From positions 122,609-186,608 of the forward strand of contig PABA01000232.1 in the NCBI GenBank assembly GCA_002699025.1: a stretch of 64,000 bases of DNA. The letters are read 5' to 3'. This DNA comes from Sandaracinus sp. Lineage in GTDB: Bacteria; Myxococcota_A; Polyangia; Polyangiales; Houyiibacteriaceae. This document shows positions 47,700 through 55,696 of this stretch, piece by piece. Positions within the stretch are counted from its first letter, which is position 1, and each line of letters starts with the position of its first letter. The translations under genes and the position numbers were made by a program. Below the pieces are notes generated by a model, which saw nothing but the letters and a program-made list of their open reading frames with translations, made no database searches and had not been told where the DNA came from.

Positions 47700-48149
47700 G
47701 TGGCCGGCCCCGCCGACGAAGCGCCCGATCCCGCCCCGGACGGCGACCCCGACACGCCGACCCCGGCCCCGAGCCGTCTGACCGGCACCGAGGGCGCGAC
47801 GCCGCCGGACGAGGAGCTCGACGAGGCGCTCGAGGCGGCCTGGGCCCGGGCGGAGGCGGAGTGGGACGACGACGACGCCCACCGGAAGTTCATCGCCCTC
47901 TGCGCGAGCTTCGGGCGCCTCGACGCCGCCGGCGGCCGCTACCGGGCCGTCCGCGAGAGCGACCCGGAGCGCGCCGAGGTCGCCAAGAAGCAGATCGACC
48001 GGATCGTCGCGCACGCCATGGCCACGCTGCAGGTCACCCGCACCGAGCCGAGTGAGCGCCCCCGCCGGAGCCTGCTCTTCGCCGCGCTCGTCCTGATGAT
48101 CGGCCTGCTCTCCATCGCGCTCTGGGTCTGGCTCGACGCCCAGCGCTGA
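47700..48149 (+). CDS. Small tail-anchored membrane protein of unknown function
   Basis: The 149-residue frame from GTG 47700 begins with a Pro/Asp/Thr-rich disordered stretch. A helical region follows (residues about 42-110, with EAAWARAEAEWDDDDAHRKF) that looks TPR-like, then one C-terminal helix (LLFAALVLMIGLLSIALWVWL). AAGGAGG ends only 1 nt before the GTG, which is closer than usual, so the true start is uncertain. I do not recognise the family. The MglA-type GTPase gene follows 105 bp later on the same strand. Confidence 0.6.
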   Translation: MAGPADEAPDPAPDGDPDTPTPAPSRLTGTEGATPPDEELDEALEAAWARAEAEWDDDDAHRKFIALCASFGRLDAAGGRYRAVRESDPERAEVAKKQIDRIVAHAMATLQVTRTEPSERPRRSLLFAALVLMIGLLSIALWVWLDAQR

Positions 48150-48254: not shown

Positions 48255-48926
48255 ATGCAGATCGATTTCCAGGCCCGCGAGCTCACCGTGAAGCTCGTCT
48301 ATTACGGGCCCGCGCTCAGCGGCAAGACGACCAACCTGCAGGCGATTCACAAGCTCGTGACGCCGGACACGGCCGGTCGCCTGATGACGCTCGAGACGCG
48401 GGACGACCGGACGCTCTTCTTCGATCTGCTCCCACTGACCTTCTCGAGCGGCAGCGGCATCCAGGTCCGCTTCAAGCTCTTCACGGTGCCGGGGCAGGTC
48501 ATCCACAACGCGACCCGTCGCCTCGTGCTCCAGGGCGCGGACGGAACGGCGTTCATCGCCGACTCGCAGGTGGCCGAGACGCGCGCGAACCAGCAGGCCT
48601 TCCTCAACATGCAGGAGAACCTGCGCGAGAACGGCCTCGACCCGACCTCCCACCCGCTCGTCATCCAGTTCAACAAGCGCGACCTCCCGGGCATCCGCAC
48701 AGACGAGGAGATCGACCGGCTCGCGGAGCGCGGCAGCGAGCCCGTCTTCAAGGCCGTCGCCATCCGCGGCGTCGGCGTGATCGAGACCTTCCTCGGCCTG
48801 ACCGACCTGACCTGGCGGGCCCTCGAGGAGAAGCACTCGCTCCACGAGAAGTTCGGCCTCGACCCGGACGAATTCCTGCGCGACGTCCGCGTGCGCCTCG
48901 GCATCGAAGGGAGGGCGGCGGAGTGA
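48255..48926 (+). CDS. MglA-family Ras-like GTPase
   Basis: This 223-residue cytoplasmic GTPase has P-loop GPALSGKTT, the MglA-type FFDLLPL segment, switch motif TVPGQVIHNATRR and specificity motif NKRDLP. In MglA proteins the conserved PGQ replaces the DxxG of Ras. The family controls cell polarity in Myxococcus (motility reversals), but many paralogues have other roles. The stop overlaps the start of the histidine kinase gene by 4 nt (GTGA), which suggests that the two work together. No MglB (roadblock) partner is adjacent. Confidence 0.88.
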   Translation: MQIDFQARELTVKLVYYGPALSGKTTNLQAIHKLVTPDTAGRLMTLETRDDRTLFFDLLPLTFSSGSGIQVRFKLFTVPGQVIHNATRRLVLQGADGTAFIADSQVAETRANQQAFLNMQENLRENGLDPTSHPLVIQFNKRDLPGIRTDEEIDRLAERGSEPVFKAVAIRGVGVIETFLGLTDLTWRALEEKHSLHEKFGLDPDEFLRDVRVRLGIEGRAAE

Positions 48927-50329
48927 ACGAGTCCCGCCCGGCGCCCGCGCCCGCCCTCGACATCGCCCTCGGCGACATCACCCGCCTCGACGAGGTCGTG
49001 GATCGCGAGGCGCTCCGCGACGTCTGCCGCTCCTTCTTCGAGCTCTTCGGGCTCTCCGCGCGCGTCTTCTCCTCGGAGGGCACGCTCCTCGCCGACGCGC
49101 ACGAGGAGCCGGCCATCCACGCCTACCTGCGCACGCTCCCGCGCGGCCGGCAGCTCCTCGACCAGAGCGTCGACGCCGTCGTGCGCGCGCACCCGGAGAA
49201 GCGGACGCAGCTCAGCGAGCTCACGGGCGCGGTCTACGACGTCGTGCCCCTCGTCTACCAGGGGCGCCGCGTCGGGCGCTTCGTGCTCGGCCCCTACCTG
49301 CCCGCCGAGCTCAAGGAGGTGCCGCGCGCGCTGCTCAAGTCGGACCCGGGCATCGACAAGGAGAAGGTGCGCACGGCGCTCGCCTCGATGCCGCGCGTGC
49401 GCGAGGCGACGGCGGAGAAGATCGTCGCGCACATGAACGGGATCATCGACCTGCTCCTCTTCTCGAGCCACCGCGCGCACCTGACGAGCGAGATGCACGT
49501 GGCGAGCGTGCGCGAGAGCTACCGGGAGCTCGCCGAGAAGACGGCGAAGCTGCAGGCGGCCTACGAGCGGCTGAAGGAGCTCGACCGGCTGAAGTCGAAC
49601 TTTCTCGCGACCGTGAGCCACGAGCTGCGCACGCCGCTCACCAGCATCATCGGCTACTCGGAGATGCTCGAGAGCGGCATCGCCGGGGACCTCGGCGCGG
49701 AGCAGAAGGAATTCGTCGAGACCATCCACGCGAAGGGCGACCAGCTGCTCGCGCTGATCACCAGCCTGCTCGATCTCTCGAAGCTCGAGCAGGGCGCGAT
49801 GAAGGTCGAGGCGGAGCCGGTGGAGCCGCGCGCGATCGTCGAGGACATCGCGAAGACCTTCACGCCGGCGGCGCACAAGAAGGGCATCGAGGTCGTGGTG
49901 GAGGTCGAGGAGGGGCTGCCGCGCGTGATGGGCGATCCGATCCGCATCAAGCAGGTCCTCTCGAACCTCGCGGAGAACGCGGTGAAGTTCACGCCCCAGG
50001 GCGGGACGGTGCGCTTCGGGGCGAAGGCCGCGGAGCTCGACGACGGAGCGAGCGGGCTCGGGGCCGTCCTGATGGCCGCGCCGCGCCGGGCGATCGCGTT
50101 CACCGTGCGGGACTCGGGCATCGGCATGCCCCGCGAGGAGCTGCCGCGGATCTTCGACGCCTTCTACCAGGTCGACGGGAGCTCCACGCGCGAGCACGGC
50201 GGGACCGGGCTCGGGCTCTCGATCGTGAAGCGCCTCGTGGACGCGCACGAGGGATCGATCGAGGTCGAGAGCTTCGTCGGCGAAGGGACGCGCTTCGTCG
50301 TGACCCTGCCCTCCGTCGAAGGCGAGTGA
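48923..50329 (+). CDS. Cytoplasmic sensor histidine kinase with PocR-like N-terminal domain
   Basis: The 468-residue protein starts at GTG 48923. Residues about 20-175 resemble a PocR-type sensory domain without the Cys set (LRDVCRSFFELFGLSARVF; GAVYDVVPLVYQGRRVGRFV). A coiled coil (about 195-225) leads to the HisKA domain, with the phospho-accepting His in SHELRTPLTSI (near 232). The ATPase domain has NLAENAVKFTP (N box), DSGIGM (G1) and GTGLGLS (G2). No membrane helix is present, so it should sense an internal signal. No response regulator is adjacent. It is translationally coupled to the MglA-type GTPase. Confidence 0.88.
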   Translation: MNESRPAPAPALDIALGDITRLDEVVDREALRDVCRSFFELFGLSARVFSSEGTLLADAHEEPAIHAYLRTLPRGRQLLDQSVDAVVRAHPEKRTQLSELTGAVYDVVPLVYQGRRVGRFVLGPYLPAELKEVPRALLKSDPGIDKEKVRTALASMPRVREATAEKIVAHMNGIIDLLLFSSHRAHLTSEMHVASVRESYRELAEKTAKLQAAYERLKELDRLKSNFLATVSHELRTPLTSIIGYSEMLESGIAGDLGAEQKEFVETIHAKGDQLLALITSLLDLSKLEQGAMKVEAEPVEPRAIVEDIAKTFTPAAHKKGIEVVVEVEEGLPRVMGDPIRIKQVLSNLAENAVKFTPQGGTVRFGAKAAELDDGASGLGAVLMAAPRRAIAFTVRDSGIGMPREELPRIFDAFYQVDGSSTREHGGTGLGLSIVKRLVDAHEGSIEVESFVGEGTRFVVTLPSVEGE

Positions 50330-50351
50330 GCGCGCCCGCCGGGGATTCGGG

Positions 50352-51287
50352 ATGGGCGAGTTCGAACGCATCGCGCGGCTGCGGCGGGCCTTCGCCGCGG
50401 AGGCGCCCGACGTGGCGCTCGGGATCGGCGACGACGCGGCCGTGCTGCGCGCGGGCGCGGACGTGGTGCTCAGCGTGGACGTGGTCGTGGAGGGCACGCA
50501 CTTCCGGCGGCGCTTCGCGGACGAGGCGACCCTCGCGCGGCGGGCGGCGATGGCGGCGCTGAGCGACCTGGCGGCGATGGGCGCGGAGGCGACGGCGCTG
50601 CTCTGCGCGTGGGTGCTGCCGGCGGAGCTCGAGGAGGCGGCCTTCGATGGGCTGGTCGCCGGGACGGCGGCGGCGGCGCGGGAGGTGGGCGCCGTGGTGG
50701 TCGGCGGGAACCTCGCGCGCGGGCCGGGGATCGCGCTGACGACGACGGCGGTCGGGCGAGCGGAGCGGGTGATCCGGCGCGACGGCGCGCGGCCCGGGGA
50801 CGGGCTCTTCGTGACCGGGGAGCCGGGGGCGGCGGCGCTCGGGCTCGCGGCGCTCCTCGCCGGGCGGGAGGACGAGGCACTCCTCGCCCCCTTCGTGGAG
50901 GCCTGGCGGCGGCCGCGGGCGCACCTCGCGGAGGGCCGCGCGCTCGCGCGGGAAGCGAACGCCTGCATCGATCTCTCGGACGGGCTCCTGCCGGACCTCG
51001 GGCACGTCTGCGCGGCGTCGGGGGTGGGCGCCCTGATCGAGCCGGACGCCCTCCCCTGCCCGGCCGGCTTCGGCGCGGCGGCGGCGGCCCTCGGCGAGGA
51101 GCCCGAGCGGCTCCAGCTCGTCGGCGGCGAGGTCTACGGGCTGCTCTTCACGGCGCCGGAAGGCGCCAAGCTGCCGGCCGGGGCGACGCGCATCGGGACC
51201 ATCGAGGCGACGCCGGGGATTCGCCTCTGCCGGGGCGACGCGGTCGAGCCGGCGCCGGAGGCGGGCTTCGATCACTTCGGCGGGTGA
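50352..51287 (+). CDS. thiL: Thiamine-monophosphate kinase-like protein
   Basis: ThiL phosphorylates thiamine phosphate to thiamine diphosphate using ATP. The 311-residue protein matches the family through its length, GIGDDAAVL, the SVDVVVEGTHF substrate motif, ALSDLAAMGA, the GGNLARG loop and DLSDGLLPDL. The last motif, usually GGEDYELLF, reads GGEVYGLLF here, so the Asp and the second Glu are changed. That could alter metal or substrate binding. It follows the histidine kinase by 22 bp. Confidence 0.85.
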   Translation: MGEFERIARLRRAFAAEAPDVALGIGDDAAVLRAGADVVLSVDVVVEGTHFRRRFADEATLARRAAMAALSDLAAMGAEATALLCAWVLPAELEEAAFDGLVAGTAAAAREVGAVVVGGNLARGPGIALTTTAVGRAERVIRRDGARPGDGLFVTGEPGAAALGLAALLAGREDEALLAPFVEAWRRPRAHLAEGRALAREANACIDLSDGLLPDLGHVCAASGVGALIEPDALPCPAGFGAAAAALGEEPERLQLVGGEVYGLLFTAPEGAKLPAGATRIGTIEATPGIRLCRGDAVEPAPEAGFDHFGG

Positions 51288-51295
51288 GCGGCCCG

Positions 51296-51452
51296 CCGTG
51301 GCGCAGCCGCCTCGACCGCAGTCGCCCTGGCCGCAGCCGTCTCGACCACAGCCGGCTCGACCGCAGTCGCCCTGGCCGCAGCCGCTCCGACCGCAGCCGC
51401 TCCGACCACAGCCGCCCCAACCGCAGTCGCCTCGACCGCAGTCGCCTTGACC
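51296..51452. repeat. 15-bp tandem repeat, about ten copies
   Basis: Units of the kind CTCGACCGCAGTCGC / CCTGGCCGCAGCCGT follow without spacers from about 51296 to 51452, occupying most of the gap between thiL and mrfA. The copies differ slightly, so this is an imperfect minisatellite. No start codon or ribosome site suggests that it is translated. Confidence 0.9.
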
Positions 51453-51483
51453 AGAAAACCTGCTCGCGCGTACAGTCCTGCAC

Positions 51484-53946
51484 ATGAGCGCAGGTGGGTC
51501 GACAGGCGGTTCGCGTCGTGGGCCGCGGGGCGCCTTCGGGGGTGCGCGGCGCAAGCCCTGGGCCAGCGGCGCGCGCGGGCTCCAGGGCGTGCTCGCCGAG
51601 TGGGAGCGGAGCGGGGTCTTCCGGAACGTCGCGCTCGATCACACGGCGCCGCCCCGGCCGGCGAAGACGGCGCCGATCCCCGAGGCGCTCCCCGAAGGCG
51701 TGCGGCAGGCGCTCACCGCGAAGGGCGTCGAGGAGCTCTACGCGCACCAGGCCCGGGCCCTCGAGCTCGGGCGCGCCGGGCGCTCCTTCGTGGTCGCGAC
51801 TCCGACCGCGTCGGGGAAGTCGCTCTGCTACAACCTCCCGATCCTCGAGACGCTCGCCGCCGAGCCGGACGCGCGGGCGCTCTACCTCTTCCCGACGAAG
51901 GCGCTGGCGCGCGACCAGGAGGAGGCGCTGAAGGCGCTCCTCCGCGAGGCCGGCCTGCCGCATGGGGCGATCACCTTCGACGGGGACACACCCGGGGACG
52001 CGCGGCGCGTGGCGAAGGAGCGGAGCGGCGTGCTCCTCTCGAACCCGGACATGCTCCACGCGGGGATCCTCCCGCACCACACGGGCTGGGCGCGCTTCTT
52101 CGCGAACCTCCGCTACGTGGTGCTCGACGAGCTCCACACCTACCGGGGCGTCTTCGGCTCCCACCTGGCGAACGTCGTCCGGCGGCTGAAGCGCATCGCC
52201 GCCTTCCACGGCGCCTCGCCGACCTTCGTCGGTGCCTCGGCGACCATCGGCAACCCGGGTGAGCACGCCGAGCGCATCCTCGGCGAGCCGGTGGAGGTGC
52301 TCGCGGAGAGCGGCGCGCCGACCGGGCCGCGGCGGGTGCTCGTCTACAACCCGCCGGTGGTGAACGAGGACCTCGGCATCCGCGCGAGCTACCTGAAGAC
52401 GGCCGTGCGGCTGACGGCGGACCTGGTGAAGGCGGGCGTGCCGACGCTGGTCTTCGGGCAGAGCCGCAACGGCGTGGAGGTGATGCTGAAGTACCTCCGC
52501 GACCGGCTGCGCGGCGAGCCCGGGCTCGGCGACGAGGCCATCCACGCCTACCGCGGCGGCTACCTGCCCAAGCAGCGGCGCGCGATCGAGGCGAGCCTGC
52601 GGAGCGGCGACATCCGCTGCGTGGTGGCGACGAACGCGCTCGAGCTCGGCATCGACATCGGCAGCCTCGACGCCGTGGTCTGCGCCGGCTACCCGGGGAC
52701 GCTCGCCGGGACCTGGCAGCGCTTCGGGCGGGCCGGCCGGCGCGAGAGCCCCTCGCTCGGCGTGCTCGTGACGTCGAGCGCGCCGCTGGATCAGTACGTC
52801 GCGCGGGAGCCCGGGCGGCTGGTGGACGCGCCCGTCGAGGAGGCGCGCATCGATCCGGACAACGTCGAGATCCTGGTGCAGCACCTGAAGTGCGCGGCCT
52901 TCGAGCTGCCCTTCGAGGAGGGCGACCGCTTCGGCGACCTGCCGGTGGAGTCGCTCGAGGAGGCGCTCGGCTTCCTCACGCACCACGGCGTCGTGCACCC
53001 GACGGCGGGGGCCGATGGGCGGCAGGTCTGGCACTGGGCGACGGACGCCTACCCGGCCAACGGCGTGTCGCTGAGGAGCGTCGGCTGGGACAACTTCGTG
53101 ATCATCGACCTCGACACGGACCAGACGATCGCCGAGATGGACTGGCGCAGCACGCACACGATGCTGCACGAGCAGGCCATCTATCAGCACGCGGCCGAGC
53201 AGTACCAGGTGGAGCGCCTCGACTACGAGAACCACAAGGCCTACGTGCGGCGCGTGAAGCCCGACTACTACACGACGGCCATGACCCATACGAAGGTCAC
53301 GGTGCTCGAGGAGGATCAGGGCGCCGTGCTGCCGCTGCAGAAGCCGCTGGCGGTGGGGCTCGGCGAGGTGACGGTCGTCTCGAAAGTCGTGGGCTACAAG
53401 AAGATCAAGTTCCACACGCACGAGAACGTCGGCTACGGGGACGTGCACCTGCCGGAGATGCAGATGCACACGACGGCCTTCTGGCTGACCTTCCCGGAGG
53501 CGCTGATCCAGAGCTTCGCGCTGCGCGAGGGGGTGCAGCGGGCGGCGGTCGTGGACGCGCTCCGCGGGCTGCTCGACGCGATGCACGTCTTGGCGGCGAT
53601 GGGGCTGATGGTGGACCCGCGGGACCTCGGGAAGACGCTCGAGGACCAGCAGGATCCGGCGGCCGGGCGCGGGCCCGGGGCGGAGGCCGCGCGGGGTTTC
53701 GACGCGACGCTCTTCCTCTACGACCGGGTGCCCGGGGGGATCGGGCTTGCGCCGCGGATCTTCGACGAGCGGGAGGCGCTCTTGCGGCGGACGCGGGCGT
53801 CGATCCAGGGGTGCGATTGCGGGAGCGGCTGCCCGGCCTGCATCGGGCCGGACGTGGGCGTGGACATGGAGGGGATGCGCTCGGTGCCGCGGAAGGCGCT
53901 GGTGCTGCGGCTCCTCGACGCGGTGGGGCTGCCGCAGGTGCACTGA
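51484..53946 (+). CDS. mrfA: DEAD/DEAH-box repair helicase, MrfA (YprA/Hrq1) family
   Basis: This 820-residue protein has a Gly/Arg-rich N-terminus and the helicase motifs ATPTASGKS (I), LDELHTYRG (II), GASATIGN (III), FGQSRNGVE (IV) and RFGRAGRRE (VI). The family-specific C-terminal DUF1998-type region ends with four Cys, CDCGSGCPACIG, that bind a metal. In Bacillus, MrfA (YprA) unwinds DNA and acts with the exonuclease MrfB in removal of mitomycin C lesions apart from UvrABC. The exonuclease is encoded just downstream here, which supports the assignment. Confidence 0.92.
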   Translation: MSAGGSTGGSRRGPRGAFGGARRKPWASGARGLQGVLAEWERSGVFRNVALDHTAPPRPAKTAPIPEALPEGVRQALTAKGVEELYAHQARALELGRAGRSFVVATPTASGKSLCYNLPILETLAAEPDARALYLFPTKALARDQEEALKALLREAGLPHGAITFDGDTPGDARRVAKERSGVLLSNPDMLHAGILPHHTGWARFFANLRYVVLDELHTYRGVFGSHLANVVRRLKRIAAFHGASPTFVGASATIGNPGEHAERILGEPVEVLAESGAPTGPRRVLVYNPPVVNEDLGIRASYLKTAVRLTADLVKAGVPTLVFGQSRNGVEVMLKYLRDRLRGEPGLGDEAIHAYRGGYLPKQRRAIEASLRSGDIRCVVATNALELGIDIGSLDAVVCAGYPGTLAGTWQRFGRAGRRESPSLGVLVTSSAPLDQYVAREPGRLVDAPVEEARIDPDNVEILVQHLKCAAFELPFEEGDRFGDLPVESLEEALGFLTHHGVVHPTAGADGRQVWHWATDAYPANGVSLRSVGWDNFVIIDLDTDQTIAEMDWRSTHTMLHEQAIYQHAAEQYQVERLDYENHKAYVRRVKPDYYTTAMTHTKVTVLEEDQGAVLPLQKPLAVGLGEVTVVSKVVGYKKIKFHTHENVGYGDVHLPEMQMHTTAFWLTFPEALIQSFALREGVQRAAVVDALRGLLDAMHVLAAMGLMVDPRDLGKTLEDQQDPAAGRGPGAEAARGFDATLFLYDRVPGGIGLAPRIFDEREALLRRTRASIQGCDCGSGCPACIGPDVGVDMEGMRSVPRKALVLRLLDAVGLPQVH

Positions 53947-54064
53947 TGGGCGAGGCGTCGCATCGGCTCCCCCTCGGCGGGGCTGCCTCCCGGAGGACGC
54001 GCGCGCCGGGCTTCCGGGCGCCCGCGCAGGGGGTCGCCGAAGCCGTGGCGTCCGGAGGAGGCAC

Positions 54065-55696
54065 GTGAAGCTCGGGCGCAAGCTGGCTCGGCTCGGCTCC
54101 GCGGGCCCCGGGTCGCGGGCGCCGAGCGCCGCGCAGCCGGCCGAGCCCGAGGCGTGCCTGCGTGACGACGACGCCTCGAGCGCCGGCGCCCCGGGCGGTG
54201 ATGCACGCGGCGGCGACGTGCTCGGCGACGGCATGCTCGGCGGAGACGTGCTCGGCGGCCGTGCACCCCGCCCCGGCGGCCACTCATCCGGCGGAGATGT
54301 ACCCGGCGGCCACTCATCCGGCGGAGATGTACCCGGAGGCGACGTCCCCGAAGGAGCTCCGCGCGGCTGCCATGACGGCGGGGCCGGCGCACCGAGCGGG
54401 GCGCCCGGGATCGACCCGGCGCGGCGCGCGCGGATCCGGCGCCTCCAGCGGAGCCTCGACGCCCTCGTCTCGAAGGGGCGGAGCGAGATGCGGGCGCGGC
54501 CGAGCGGTCCTGCCGACGCCGGCGACGCGCTCGCGGCGGCGCTGAGGAGCAGCGCGCCCACCCCTCGCATCCCGCCGAGCGGCCGCTCGCTCCCAGGTGC
54601 CCGGGTGTCGACGCCCTACGGGCCCGTGCATCAGGTGGAGCACTGGCTCGAGCCCCACCACGCGCATGGCGTGGTGCCCGTGACCTCCGCGCTGGAGGCG
54701 GAGAGCCCGCTCGTCGCCTCGCTCGCCCTCGACCCGGCCTTCCGGGAGATCGACCTCTCGCGCGCGCTCTTCATCGACACGGAGACGACGGGCCTGAGCA
54801 CCGCCGCCGGCACGCTCGCCTTCCTCGTCGGCGTCGCCTTCTTCGAAGACGAGTCGCTCTGCGTGCAGCAGTACCTCTTGACCGAGCTCGGCCGCGAGGC
54901 GCCGATGCTCCAGCTCCTCGCCGAGCGCATCCGCGCCGCGAGCTGCGTCGTCAGCTACAACGGCAAGAGCTTCGACTGGCCGCTCTTGCGCGCGCGCTAC
55001 GTGATGAACCGGGTGGCCGCGCCGCCGCTCCCGCCGCACCTCGACCTGCTCCACTGCGCGCGCCGCGTGTTCAAGAAGCGCCTCGACTCGGTGCGCCTCG
55101 TCGACATGGAGCGCGAGCTCCTCGGCTTCGTGCGCGAGCACGACGTGAGCGGCGCGGAGATCCCGGGCATCTACCTGCACTTCGTGCGGAGCGGCGATCC
55201 GGGTCGGCTCGACGGCGTGGTCGAGCACAACGGGCACGACCTGATCGCCCTGGCGGCGATCCTCGGGGAGCTCGCGAAGCGCTTCCGCGACGTGCGCCGG
55301 GAAGACGACCCGCTCGACCACCTCGGCTACGCGAAGGTCGCCGAGCGGGCCGGAGACGCGGAGCGGGCGGCGCGCTTCGCCTCGGCGGCGGCCGCGGGCG
55401 GGGGCGACGAGGAGTGCACGCTCGAGGCGCTGCTGCTCGCGGCGCGGGTGGCGCGACGCTCCAAGGACGTGGAGGCCGAAGAGCGGGCTCTCCTCACGGC
55501 GCTCGGGACGCGGGCCGCGCCGCGCGTGCACCTCGAGCTCGCGAAGCTCTACGAGCACCGGCGGAAGGACCCGGTGCGCGCCCTGAGCCACGCGATGACC
55601 ACCTGCCCCGCCGAGGCCCTCGAGGAGCGCGAGCGCAGGCTGAAGCGCCTGGCGGGCCGCCTCGCGCGCCACAACGTCCGCAAGCGCCCCCGCTAG
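54065..55696 (+). CDS. mrfB: DEDD exonuclease with TPR region, MrfB (YprB) family
   Basis: The start is GTG 54065, 6 nt after GGAGG (54054-54058). The 543-residue protein has a long low-complexity N-terminus (residues about 15-115, Gly/Asp/Ser-rich with repeated GGHSSGGDVP units). The RNase H-like exonuclease follows (about 235-410) with FIDTETTGLS (DTE), SYNGKSFDWPLL (Asp), LDLLHCARR and EHNGHDLIAL (His-x3-Asp), a DEDDh set. The end is helical with TPR-like repeats. This order is that of Bacillus MrfB, except for the extended N-terminus. It lies 118 bp downstream of mrfA. Confidence 0.88.
   Translation: MKLGRKLARLGSAGPGSRAPSAAQPAEPEACLRDDDASSAGAPGGDARGGDVLGDGMLGGDVLGGRAPRPGGHSSGGDVPGGHSSGGDVPGGDVPEGAPRGCHDGGAGAPSGAPGIDPARRARIRRLQRSLDALVSKGRSEMRARPSGPADAGDALAAALRSSAPTPRIPPSGRSLPGARVSTPYGPVHQVEHWLEPHHAHGVVPVTSALEAESPLVASLALDPAFREIDLSRALFIDTETTGLSTAAGTLAFLVGVAFFEDESLCVQQYLLTELGREAPMLQLLAERIRAASCVVSYNGKSFDWPLLRARYVMNRVAAPPLPPHLDLLHCARRVFKKRLDSVRLVDMERELLGFVREHDVSGAEIPGIYLHFVRSGDPGRLDGVVEHNGHDLIALAAILGELAKRFRDVRREDDPLDHLGYAKVAERAGDAERAARFASAAAAGGGDEECTLEALLLAARVARRSKDVEAEERALLTALGTRAAPRVHLELAKLYEHRRKDPVRALSHAMTTCPAEALEERERRLKRLAGRLARHNVRKRPR
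54272..54331 (+). repeat. Two perfect 30-bp repeats inside mrfB
   Basis: The unit begins CCCGGCGGCCACTCATCCGG and occurs at 54272-54301 and 54302-54331 without mismatch. It encodes GGHSSGGDVP twice, and related degenerate units lie just upstream. The length is a multiple of three, so copy changes keep the frame. Confidence 0.85.

Follow-up and report, generated by a model that had tools for sequence, protein, structure and literature searches.

Small GTPases and two-component kinases have mostly been the subjects of separate studies; here we describe a gene pair, an MglA-type GTPase overlapping a PocR-like histidine kinase, that points to an uncharacterised joining of both kinds of signalling. 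The pair lies in a 64,000-nucleotide stretch of DNA from Sandaracinus sp. (contig PABA01000232.1, positions 122,609 to 186,608 of the forward strand; C5:122609-186608 in own-genome coordinates), which we call the window and within which positions are counted. MglA proteins are mostly coupled to MglB—390 of 449 have an MglB gene within a few genes—and the gene neighbourhoods of Group 1 MglAs vary widely (PMC4316618; this paper, PMC13343842, PMC1592074, PMC9768040 and PMC6785124 are cited throughout for those parts of their text that were available). Orphan Group 1 GTPases, among them SofG of Myxococcus xanthus and the Bdellovibrio MglA, have no coupled MglB (PMC4316618). The conservons of Actinomycetota, made up of the kinase CvnA, the MglB-like CvnB, CvnC and the GTPase CvnD, bring an MglA-family GTPase together with a histidine kinase whose phosphorylation target is given as unknown (PMC4316618, PMC13343842). 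On the kinase side, MecA of the dichloromethane mec cassette combines a PocR sensor, a signalling helix and a kinase (PMC1592074, PMC9768040). The window pair, with the gene that follows it, is made up of these features:

48255..48926, + strand: MglA-type small GTPase of 223 amino acids, from ATG at 48255 to TGA at 48924-48926, with the P-loop GPALSGKT, the arginine-finger motif DDRTLFFD, TVPGQ, NKRD and a C-terminal extension absent from canonical MglA.
48923..50329, + strand: histidine kinase of 468 amino acids, with a GTG start at 48923 and a stop ending at 50329.
48992..49465, + strand: sensor domain of the PocR type (Pfam PocR), spanning kinase residues 24-181, in which His66, Leu79 and Glu99 replace the usual three cysteines of relatives.
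49403..49672, + strand: continuous helix, residues 161-250, linking the sensor to the H-box in the structure model, with the conserved stretch LTSxMHxASVRESYREL.
49592..50314, + strand: kinase core, HisKA and HATPase_c, residues 224-464 (Pfam).
50352..51287, + strand: thiL, thiamine-phosphate kinase (TIGR01379, 252.5 bits with a cut-off of 184.15), 22 bases after the kinase stop.

The GTPase stop and the kinase start share four bases, GTGA, and the gene ends, phmmer and Pfam agree on the overlapping pair that a first-pass annotation of this DNA had proposed. That annotation ran the pair from 48255 to 51287; the pair itself stands but ends at 50329, and the stretch up to 51287 takes in another gene, thiL, which went unmentioned. 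Like the conservons, the pair encodes an MglA-family GTPase and a histidine kinase together, with no receiver in the operon. Conservon kinases have transmembrane and HAMP parts and a C-terminal LPxR, whereas the window kinase is of the PocR type, shows no membrane segment and has no LPxR in its last 25 residues (the motif is present there in 6 of 110 relatives). In addition, the conservon GTPase belongs to Group 2 (GTPGQ, no arginine finger) and the window GTPase carries Group 1 motifs (PMC4316618, PMC13343842); conservons include CvnB and CvnC, and the window pair has no MglB nearby. Of the known systems the conservon works most alike; on MglB, LPxR and GTPase group the pair does not belong to it. 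SofG and the Bdellovibrio MglA share its Group 1 motifs and lack of a coupled MglB, but the available text of PMC4316618 names no kinase partner for them. MecA, unlike the window kinase, is described as belonging to a two-component transcriptional regulator, and the available parts of PMC1592074 and PMC9768040 mention no GTPase. A search of titles and abstracts, with most subscription papers outside its reach, returned no description of an MglA-type GTPase paired with a PocR kinase, and the available text of PMC4316618 describes no Group 1 subclade with a fixed kinase partner (its supplementary tables lay outside the search).

The adjacency of GTPase and kinase is deeply conserved. The first-pass annotation had named a lack of conserved adjacency as what would speak against the pairing; we found the pair kept together at nearly every place where the GTPase occurs in a sample of the window's class. 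Within the window's family, 30 of 33 genomes hold a close GTPase orthologue (E 1.2e-75 or better; the remaining three have weaker MglA matches only), and the kinase lies directly 3' of it in all 30. A scan of named genomes, from which the best 80 of 150 relatives were kept, gave a kinase after the GTPase in 80 of 80 loci: the kinase core is on the same strand and 3' in 78, and the contigs of the other two end within or just after the sensor match. The titles of these loci cover bins of Sandaracinaceae and Polyangiaceae, strains of Plesiocystis, Enhygromyxa and Paraliomyxa, bins of Archangium and Myxococcaceae, and one bin called Bdellovibrio. The cultured species Plesiocystis pacifica, Enhygromyxa salina and Paraliomyxa miuraensis are among the carriers. 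In a class sample of 192 genomes, GTPase matches at E 1e-55 or better were found in 94 genomes at 95 places, every one of which was examined, 80 of them on fetched DNA and the other 15 by matching their coordinates by eye to those of the kinase matches; the kinase follows at 92, and one further place, L274, is cut by a contig end. Counts from the named and unnamed sets are not additive, since their genomes overlap. The kinase start codon lies 4 bases before the GTPase end in 89 of 112 unique pairs, as counted by a script that favours that start where it is present, and no GTPase-kinase fusion was seen among 142 pairs (repeats of the same genome included). Seen from the kinase side, a query of sensor plus linker gave one match each in 63 of the 192 class genomes, and 57 of these 63 adjoin the GTPase (56 by coordinates and L215 on fetched DNA), with L216 at a contig edge.

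Both proteins look active, with their catalytic motifs intact. The GTPase matches only the MglAs of M. xanthus and Thermus thermophilus in the PDB (phmmer, E 0.001; four distinct sequences, E 3e-52 to 2e-49). As Pfam gives no match at 0.01 and NCBIfam just small_GTP, below its cut-off, the GTPase is named here by its similarity to MglA and by its motifs: the P-loop pattern GxxxxGK[T/S] is present in 112 of 112 relatives, and the arginine beside the G2 threonine, TVPGQ (G3) and NK[RK]D (G4) each in 111 of 112. The arginine finger together with TVPGQ marks Group 1 in the scheme of PMC4316618. For the kinase, Pfam scores are well above cut-off for PF10114 (PocR; 50.3 bits, cut-off 23.9), PF00512 (HisKA; 81.4, cut-off 26.9) and PF02518 (HATPase_c; 106.5, cut-off 26.4). 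Across all 77 aligned relatives there is no change at His233, Glu234, Asn352 or the G-box residues, and Thr237 of HExxT is kept in at least 90% of them. The threonine of HExxT is a residue of phosphatase-competent kinases. A plain-text H-box pattern matched 102 of 110 kinases, some of the eight misses being cut by contig ends. As the first-pass annotation had it, the kinase appears soluble: no membrane segment is visible in the sequence or in the secondary structure of the model, as judged by eye.

The constant part of the unit does not include the sensor. In the structure model of the window kinase (mean predicted local distance difference test, pLDDT, 90.7; about 97 across most of the sensor; predicted template modelling score, pTM, 0.65), residues 161-250 form a single helix, which we liken, by its position between the PocR-type and kinase domains, to the signalling helix described as joining these domains (PMC1592074). 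Relatives carry cysteines at three sensor positions in 74, 74 and 89 of 112 cases—a commonness counted within the GTPase-linked clade—and all three are lost in the window and in its nearest relatives L068-L073 and L078. Pfam detects the PocR domain in the window, L142 and L151 and detects none in L125, L222 and L226, where the N-terminal part is shorter or diverged; the GTPase, linker and kinase core persist in lineages whose sensor drops from view. The first-pass annotation, which had noted the PocR-like sensor, suggested that the pair could link an internal signal to polarity or another GTPase output. The domain is there, but it is doubtful as a constant input, since in this lineage it is degenerate and elsewhere it is shortened or goes unrecognised. 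Two sequence matches to PocR in the PDB (E 0.46 and 0.7) were not credible, and a fold search with the kinase returned match lists filled by the kinase core.

That the GTPase and the kinase share one pathway is well supported, and the functional link suggested earlier gains indirect backing from co-variation that exceeds a linked control. We compared 45 loci with GTPase, kinase and ThiL genes in a row; the window is absent from this set, as its record ended inside thiL. The GTPase and kinase core distances correlate given ThiL, with a partial r of 0.61 (0.51-0.74 in 60% subsamples), against 0.39 for GTPase and ThiL given the core and 0.30 for the core and ThiL given the GTPase; the first value was above these two controls in 96% and 99% of 500 subsamples. 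Within the kinase, co-variation with the GTPase is 0.68 for the core versus 0.35 for the sensor in the 45 loci. Mutual information agrees weakly, with 0.00134 of GTPase-kinase pairs above 4 standard deviations versus 0.00064 and 0.00058 in the ThiL controls; we claim no contacts from it, because the top single scores are alike (6.2, 6.4 and 5.9 standard deviations).

We propose, with a probability of roughly one half, that the GTPase tunes the kinase and that a receiver is the target of the kinase. Depending on whether GTP or GDP is bound to it, the MglA-like GTPase would act on the kinase core and on the helix leading into it, and would thereby govern the extent to which the kinase adds phosphate to its partner or removes it. 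A second, lineage-specific input would come from the PocR-type domain, and the receiver would, in the window's genome, be encoded elsewhere. We infer the contact between the two proteins, its site at the core and not at the sensor, the direction from GTPase to kinase, and the unlinked receiver. The pair may be useful beyond its own lineage: the signal path of the conservon is unresolved, and a pair without MglB and with one constant kinase is a simpler system in which to tell GTPase-to-kinase signalling from the reverse. Natural loci that have no GTPase or have gained a receiver provide ready comparisons.

Several observations weigh against this proposal. No receiver (PF00072) is encoded in the window; its genome has 123 PF00072 matches, of which just one, at C5:46139, shares the window's contig. 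The receiver next to the kinase in one relative, L151, differs from those in three others (L136, L137 and L168), so that the adjacency of kinase and receiver may be recent; moreover, the L136 receiver has no close relative in the window's genome (best 35% identity, E 6e-14). The GTPase occurs without an adjoining kinase at two class places, L225 and L248, the latter a second copy in its genome. The 45 co-variation loci are related and non-independent, and shared rate changes without contact could give the same signal. Structure modelling of the GTPase with the sensor showed no contact: the model of a single chain, made by reading across the stop codons in L095, had a pTM of 0.53 and a disordered linker, and lent no support to a GTPase docked on the sensor.

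The reverse direction is a serious but tentative possibility: the kinase, directly or via an exchange or activating factor, would set the nucleotide state of the GTPase, which would be the output in place of a response regulator. In the conservon, the known operon that combines a kinase with an MglA-type GTPase, signalling is believed to pass in that direction (PMC4316618, PMC13343842, as far as their available text goes), and the window has no receiver. The absence of a nearby receiver noted by the first-pass annotation does hold for the window. Across the named loci receivers are found in the flanks of just 6 of 80, or 0.006 per kb versus 0.013 per kb genome-wide (Pfam), a rough comparison since the profiles differ. 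The absence does not extend to all relatives, however. A scan widened to 248 fetched loci, with many repeats of one genome among them, found receivers at eight different places. In four loci a receiver gene lies directly 3' of the kinase on the same strand (L136 5583-5915, L137 10125-10457, L168 3173-3508 and L151 5118-5450); in L136 and L137 it separates the kinase from a ThiL-like frame, the latter read by eye, and L136, L137 and L168 have related receivers (59-84%). In L068 and L069, the window's two nearest relatives, a receiver gene precedes the GTPase by about 0.6 kb; the L068 gene encodes a receiver-GGDEF protein (Pfam). In L115 and L143 the receiver is farther off. Judged by gene order, the receivers next to the kinase in the four relatives are perhaps its cognate target; since receiver genes directly follow the kinase in these relatives, it probably has a receiver target in some lineages.

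Loci that have the kinase alone also speak against an output through the GTPase. Five kinases without an adjoining GTPase (L217-L221, 28-35% identity) look intact: all keep HELRTP, and by simple patterns the N box is recognised in 4, the G1 box in 3 and the G2 box in 4 of the five. Most simply, these loci would have lost the GTPase and retained the kinase. Together with the four loci in which a receiver directly follows the kinase, they favour a kinase output other than the GTPase. The canonical HELRTP box kept in the kinase, and the absence from the vicinity of MglB, the go-between in conservons, count further against kinase-to-GTPase signalling. An M50 protease adjoins the lone kinase in all five loci. 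In eight others (L223, L224, L226, L229, L233, L236, L243 and L244) the order is M50 protease, GTPase, kinase, and in L225 the protease adjoins the GTPase alone; the M50 protease is a possible further component of the unit in some families.

Alternatively, the GTPase could serve in the MglA pathway of polarity or motility; the genome's MglB would then act on it at a distance, and the kinase would be an accessory. The resemblance of the GTPase to MglA and the presence in the genome of a canonical MglA beside MglB are in keeping with this idea, which we nonetheless consider clearly unlikely. As the first-pass annotation had observed, the GTPase has a kinase for a partner and no MglB: the three Robl_LC7 (MglB) matches in its genome are all on other contigs, the best adjoining the canonical MglA, and a single-sequence search with the genome's MglB found no MglB gene near the GTPase in 81 sources (the flanks of the 80 named loci and the window). 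The GTPase shares with the MglA of the MglA-MglB systems of M. xanthus and T. thermophilus its fold by sequence, the arginine finger and TVPGQ; it differs in belonging to a separate subclade with no MglB nearby, mostly replaced alpha-5 lysines, a C-terminal extension and the kinase as constant neighbour. The alpha-5 lysines, kept by canonical MglA in 15, 14 and 12 of 15 rows, are of the kind that in M. xanthus are reported to contact the C-terminal helix of MglB (PMC6785124, available parts), and because they are mostly replaced in the kinase-linked GTPases, control of the window GTPase by MglB is doubtful. No MglA more than 84% identical to that of M. xanthus was found among 377 sampled genomes.

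A third alternative, that the two genes are co-transcribed neighbours working separately, finds some encouragement in the persistence of other neighbours in parts of the clade (thiL matches in 52 of 80 named-locus flanks), but it is very improbable, as the pair outlasts thiL (52), the upstream open reading frame (22) and mraZ (20 of 80), co-varies above the ThiL control, and accounts for 57 of the 63 sensor-linker matches in the class sample.

Judging from a tree of 74 rows, the kinase-linked GTPases are an MglA subclade of their own, sister to a mutase-linked subclade. The two form one group with 100% support in the Shimodaira-Hasegawa-like approximate likelihood ratio test (SH-aLRT), apart from M. 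xanthus MglA and the canonical MglA of the window's genome. Within it the mutase-linked rows form one group (SH-aLRT 89) and the kinase-linked rows another (91), including L199, which entered the tree under the label 'other' and was found afterwards to carry the kinase. This is a quick tree, with 33 of 71 inner branches below 80, built from Myxococcota rows and one M. xanthus MglA, without Groups 2-5. Both subclades have the C-terminal extension; among the 112 relatives of the window GTPase, His194 is present in 93, Lys or Arg199 in 105 and Phe200 in 92.

Outside the class, the phylum sample holds 52 GTPase places, all fetched. The kinase is present at 11 and two are cut on that side, and at 39 the GTPase lies downstream of methylmalonyl-CoA mutase and MeaB on the same strand, with no kinase in the fetched stretch (L152-L154, L156, L157, L159, L160, L162-L167, L169-L177, L179-L181, L183-L186, L188-L190, L285 and L287-L292). 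In L164, genes for RibBA, a MoxR-type AAA protein and a CoxE-type protein come after the mutase-linked GTPase. The MglA subclade is marked out by two alternative conserved neighbourhoods: the kinase, or methylmalonyl-CoA mutase with MeaB. A paper search on this point listed nothing joining an MglA-type GTPase to a B12-dependent mutase, and the association may merit separate study. The PocR domain is named for a propanediol-responsive regulator. A speculative and rather unlikely history is that one MglA subclade gave up MglB and took the kinase core as a client or regulator, and that its sister joined methylmalonyl-CoA mutase, which depends on B12, and MeaB, the GTPase chaperone of that mutase. 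In its boldest form, the shared ancestor would have watched propionate or B12 metabolism, and the PocR-type kinase would be the signalling branch of that metabolic check, gated by the GTPase.

Two very divergent MglA-like matches occur elsewhere in the window's genome, L005 (C233) and L006 (C200), at 31 and 27% identity; they lie in open frames of 541 and 791 amino acids and are perhaps GTPase domains inside larger proteins.

ThiL is a probable co-transcribed neighbour of the kinase, which does not imply membership in the GTPase-kinase unit. Upstream of the GTPase, a 149-amino-acid open reading frame (47700-48149, + strand), whose C-terminal part includes a hydrophobic stretch, matches nothing in Pfam or NCBIfam at 0.01. 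Farther upstream, mraZ is divergent, and the divergent frames near it are presumably rsmH, ftsL and ftsI. Between thiL and the helicase gene that follows lies a GC-rich tandem array (51302-51453) with a 15-base unit and a 45-base register. At 51484-55696 on the + strand, that helicase, of the DEAD-box type with an MrfA zinc-binding domain, is followed by an RNase_H_2 exonuclease frame (Pfam), an arrangement like that of the MrfAB repair genes; the exonuclease frame is one we take to be MrfB by name.

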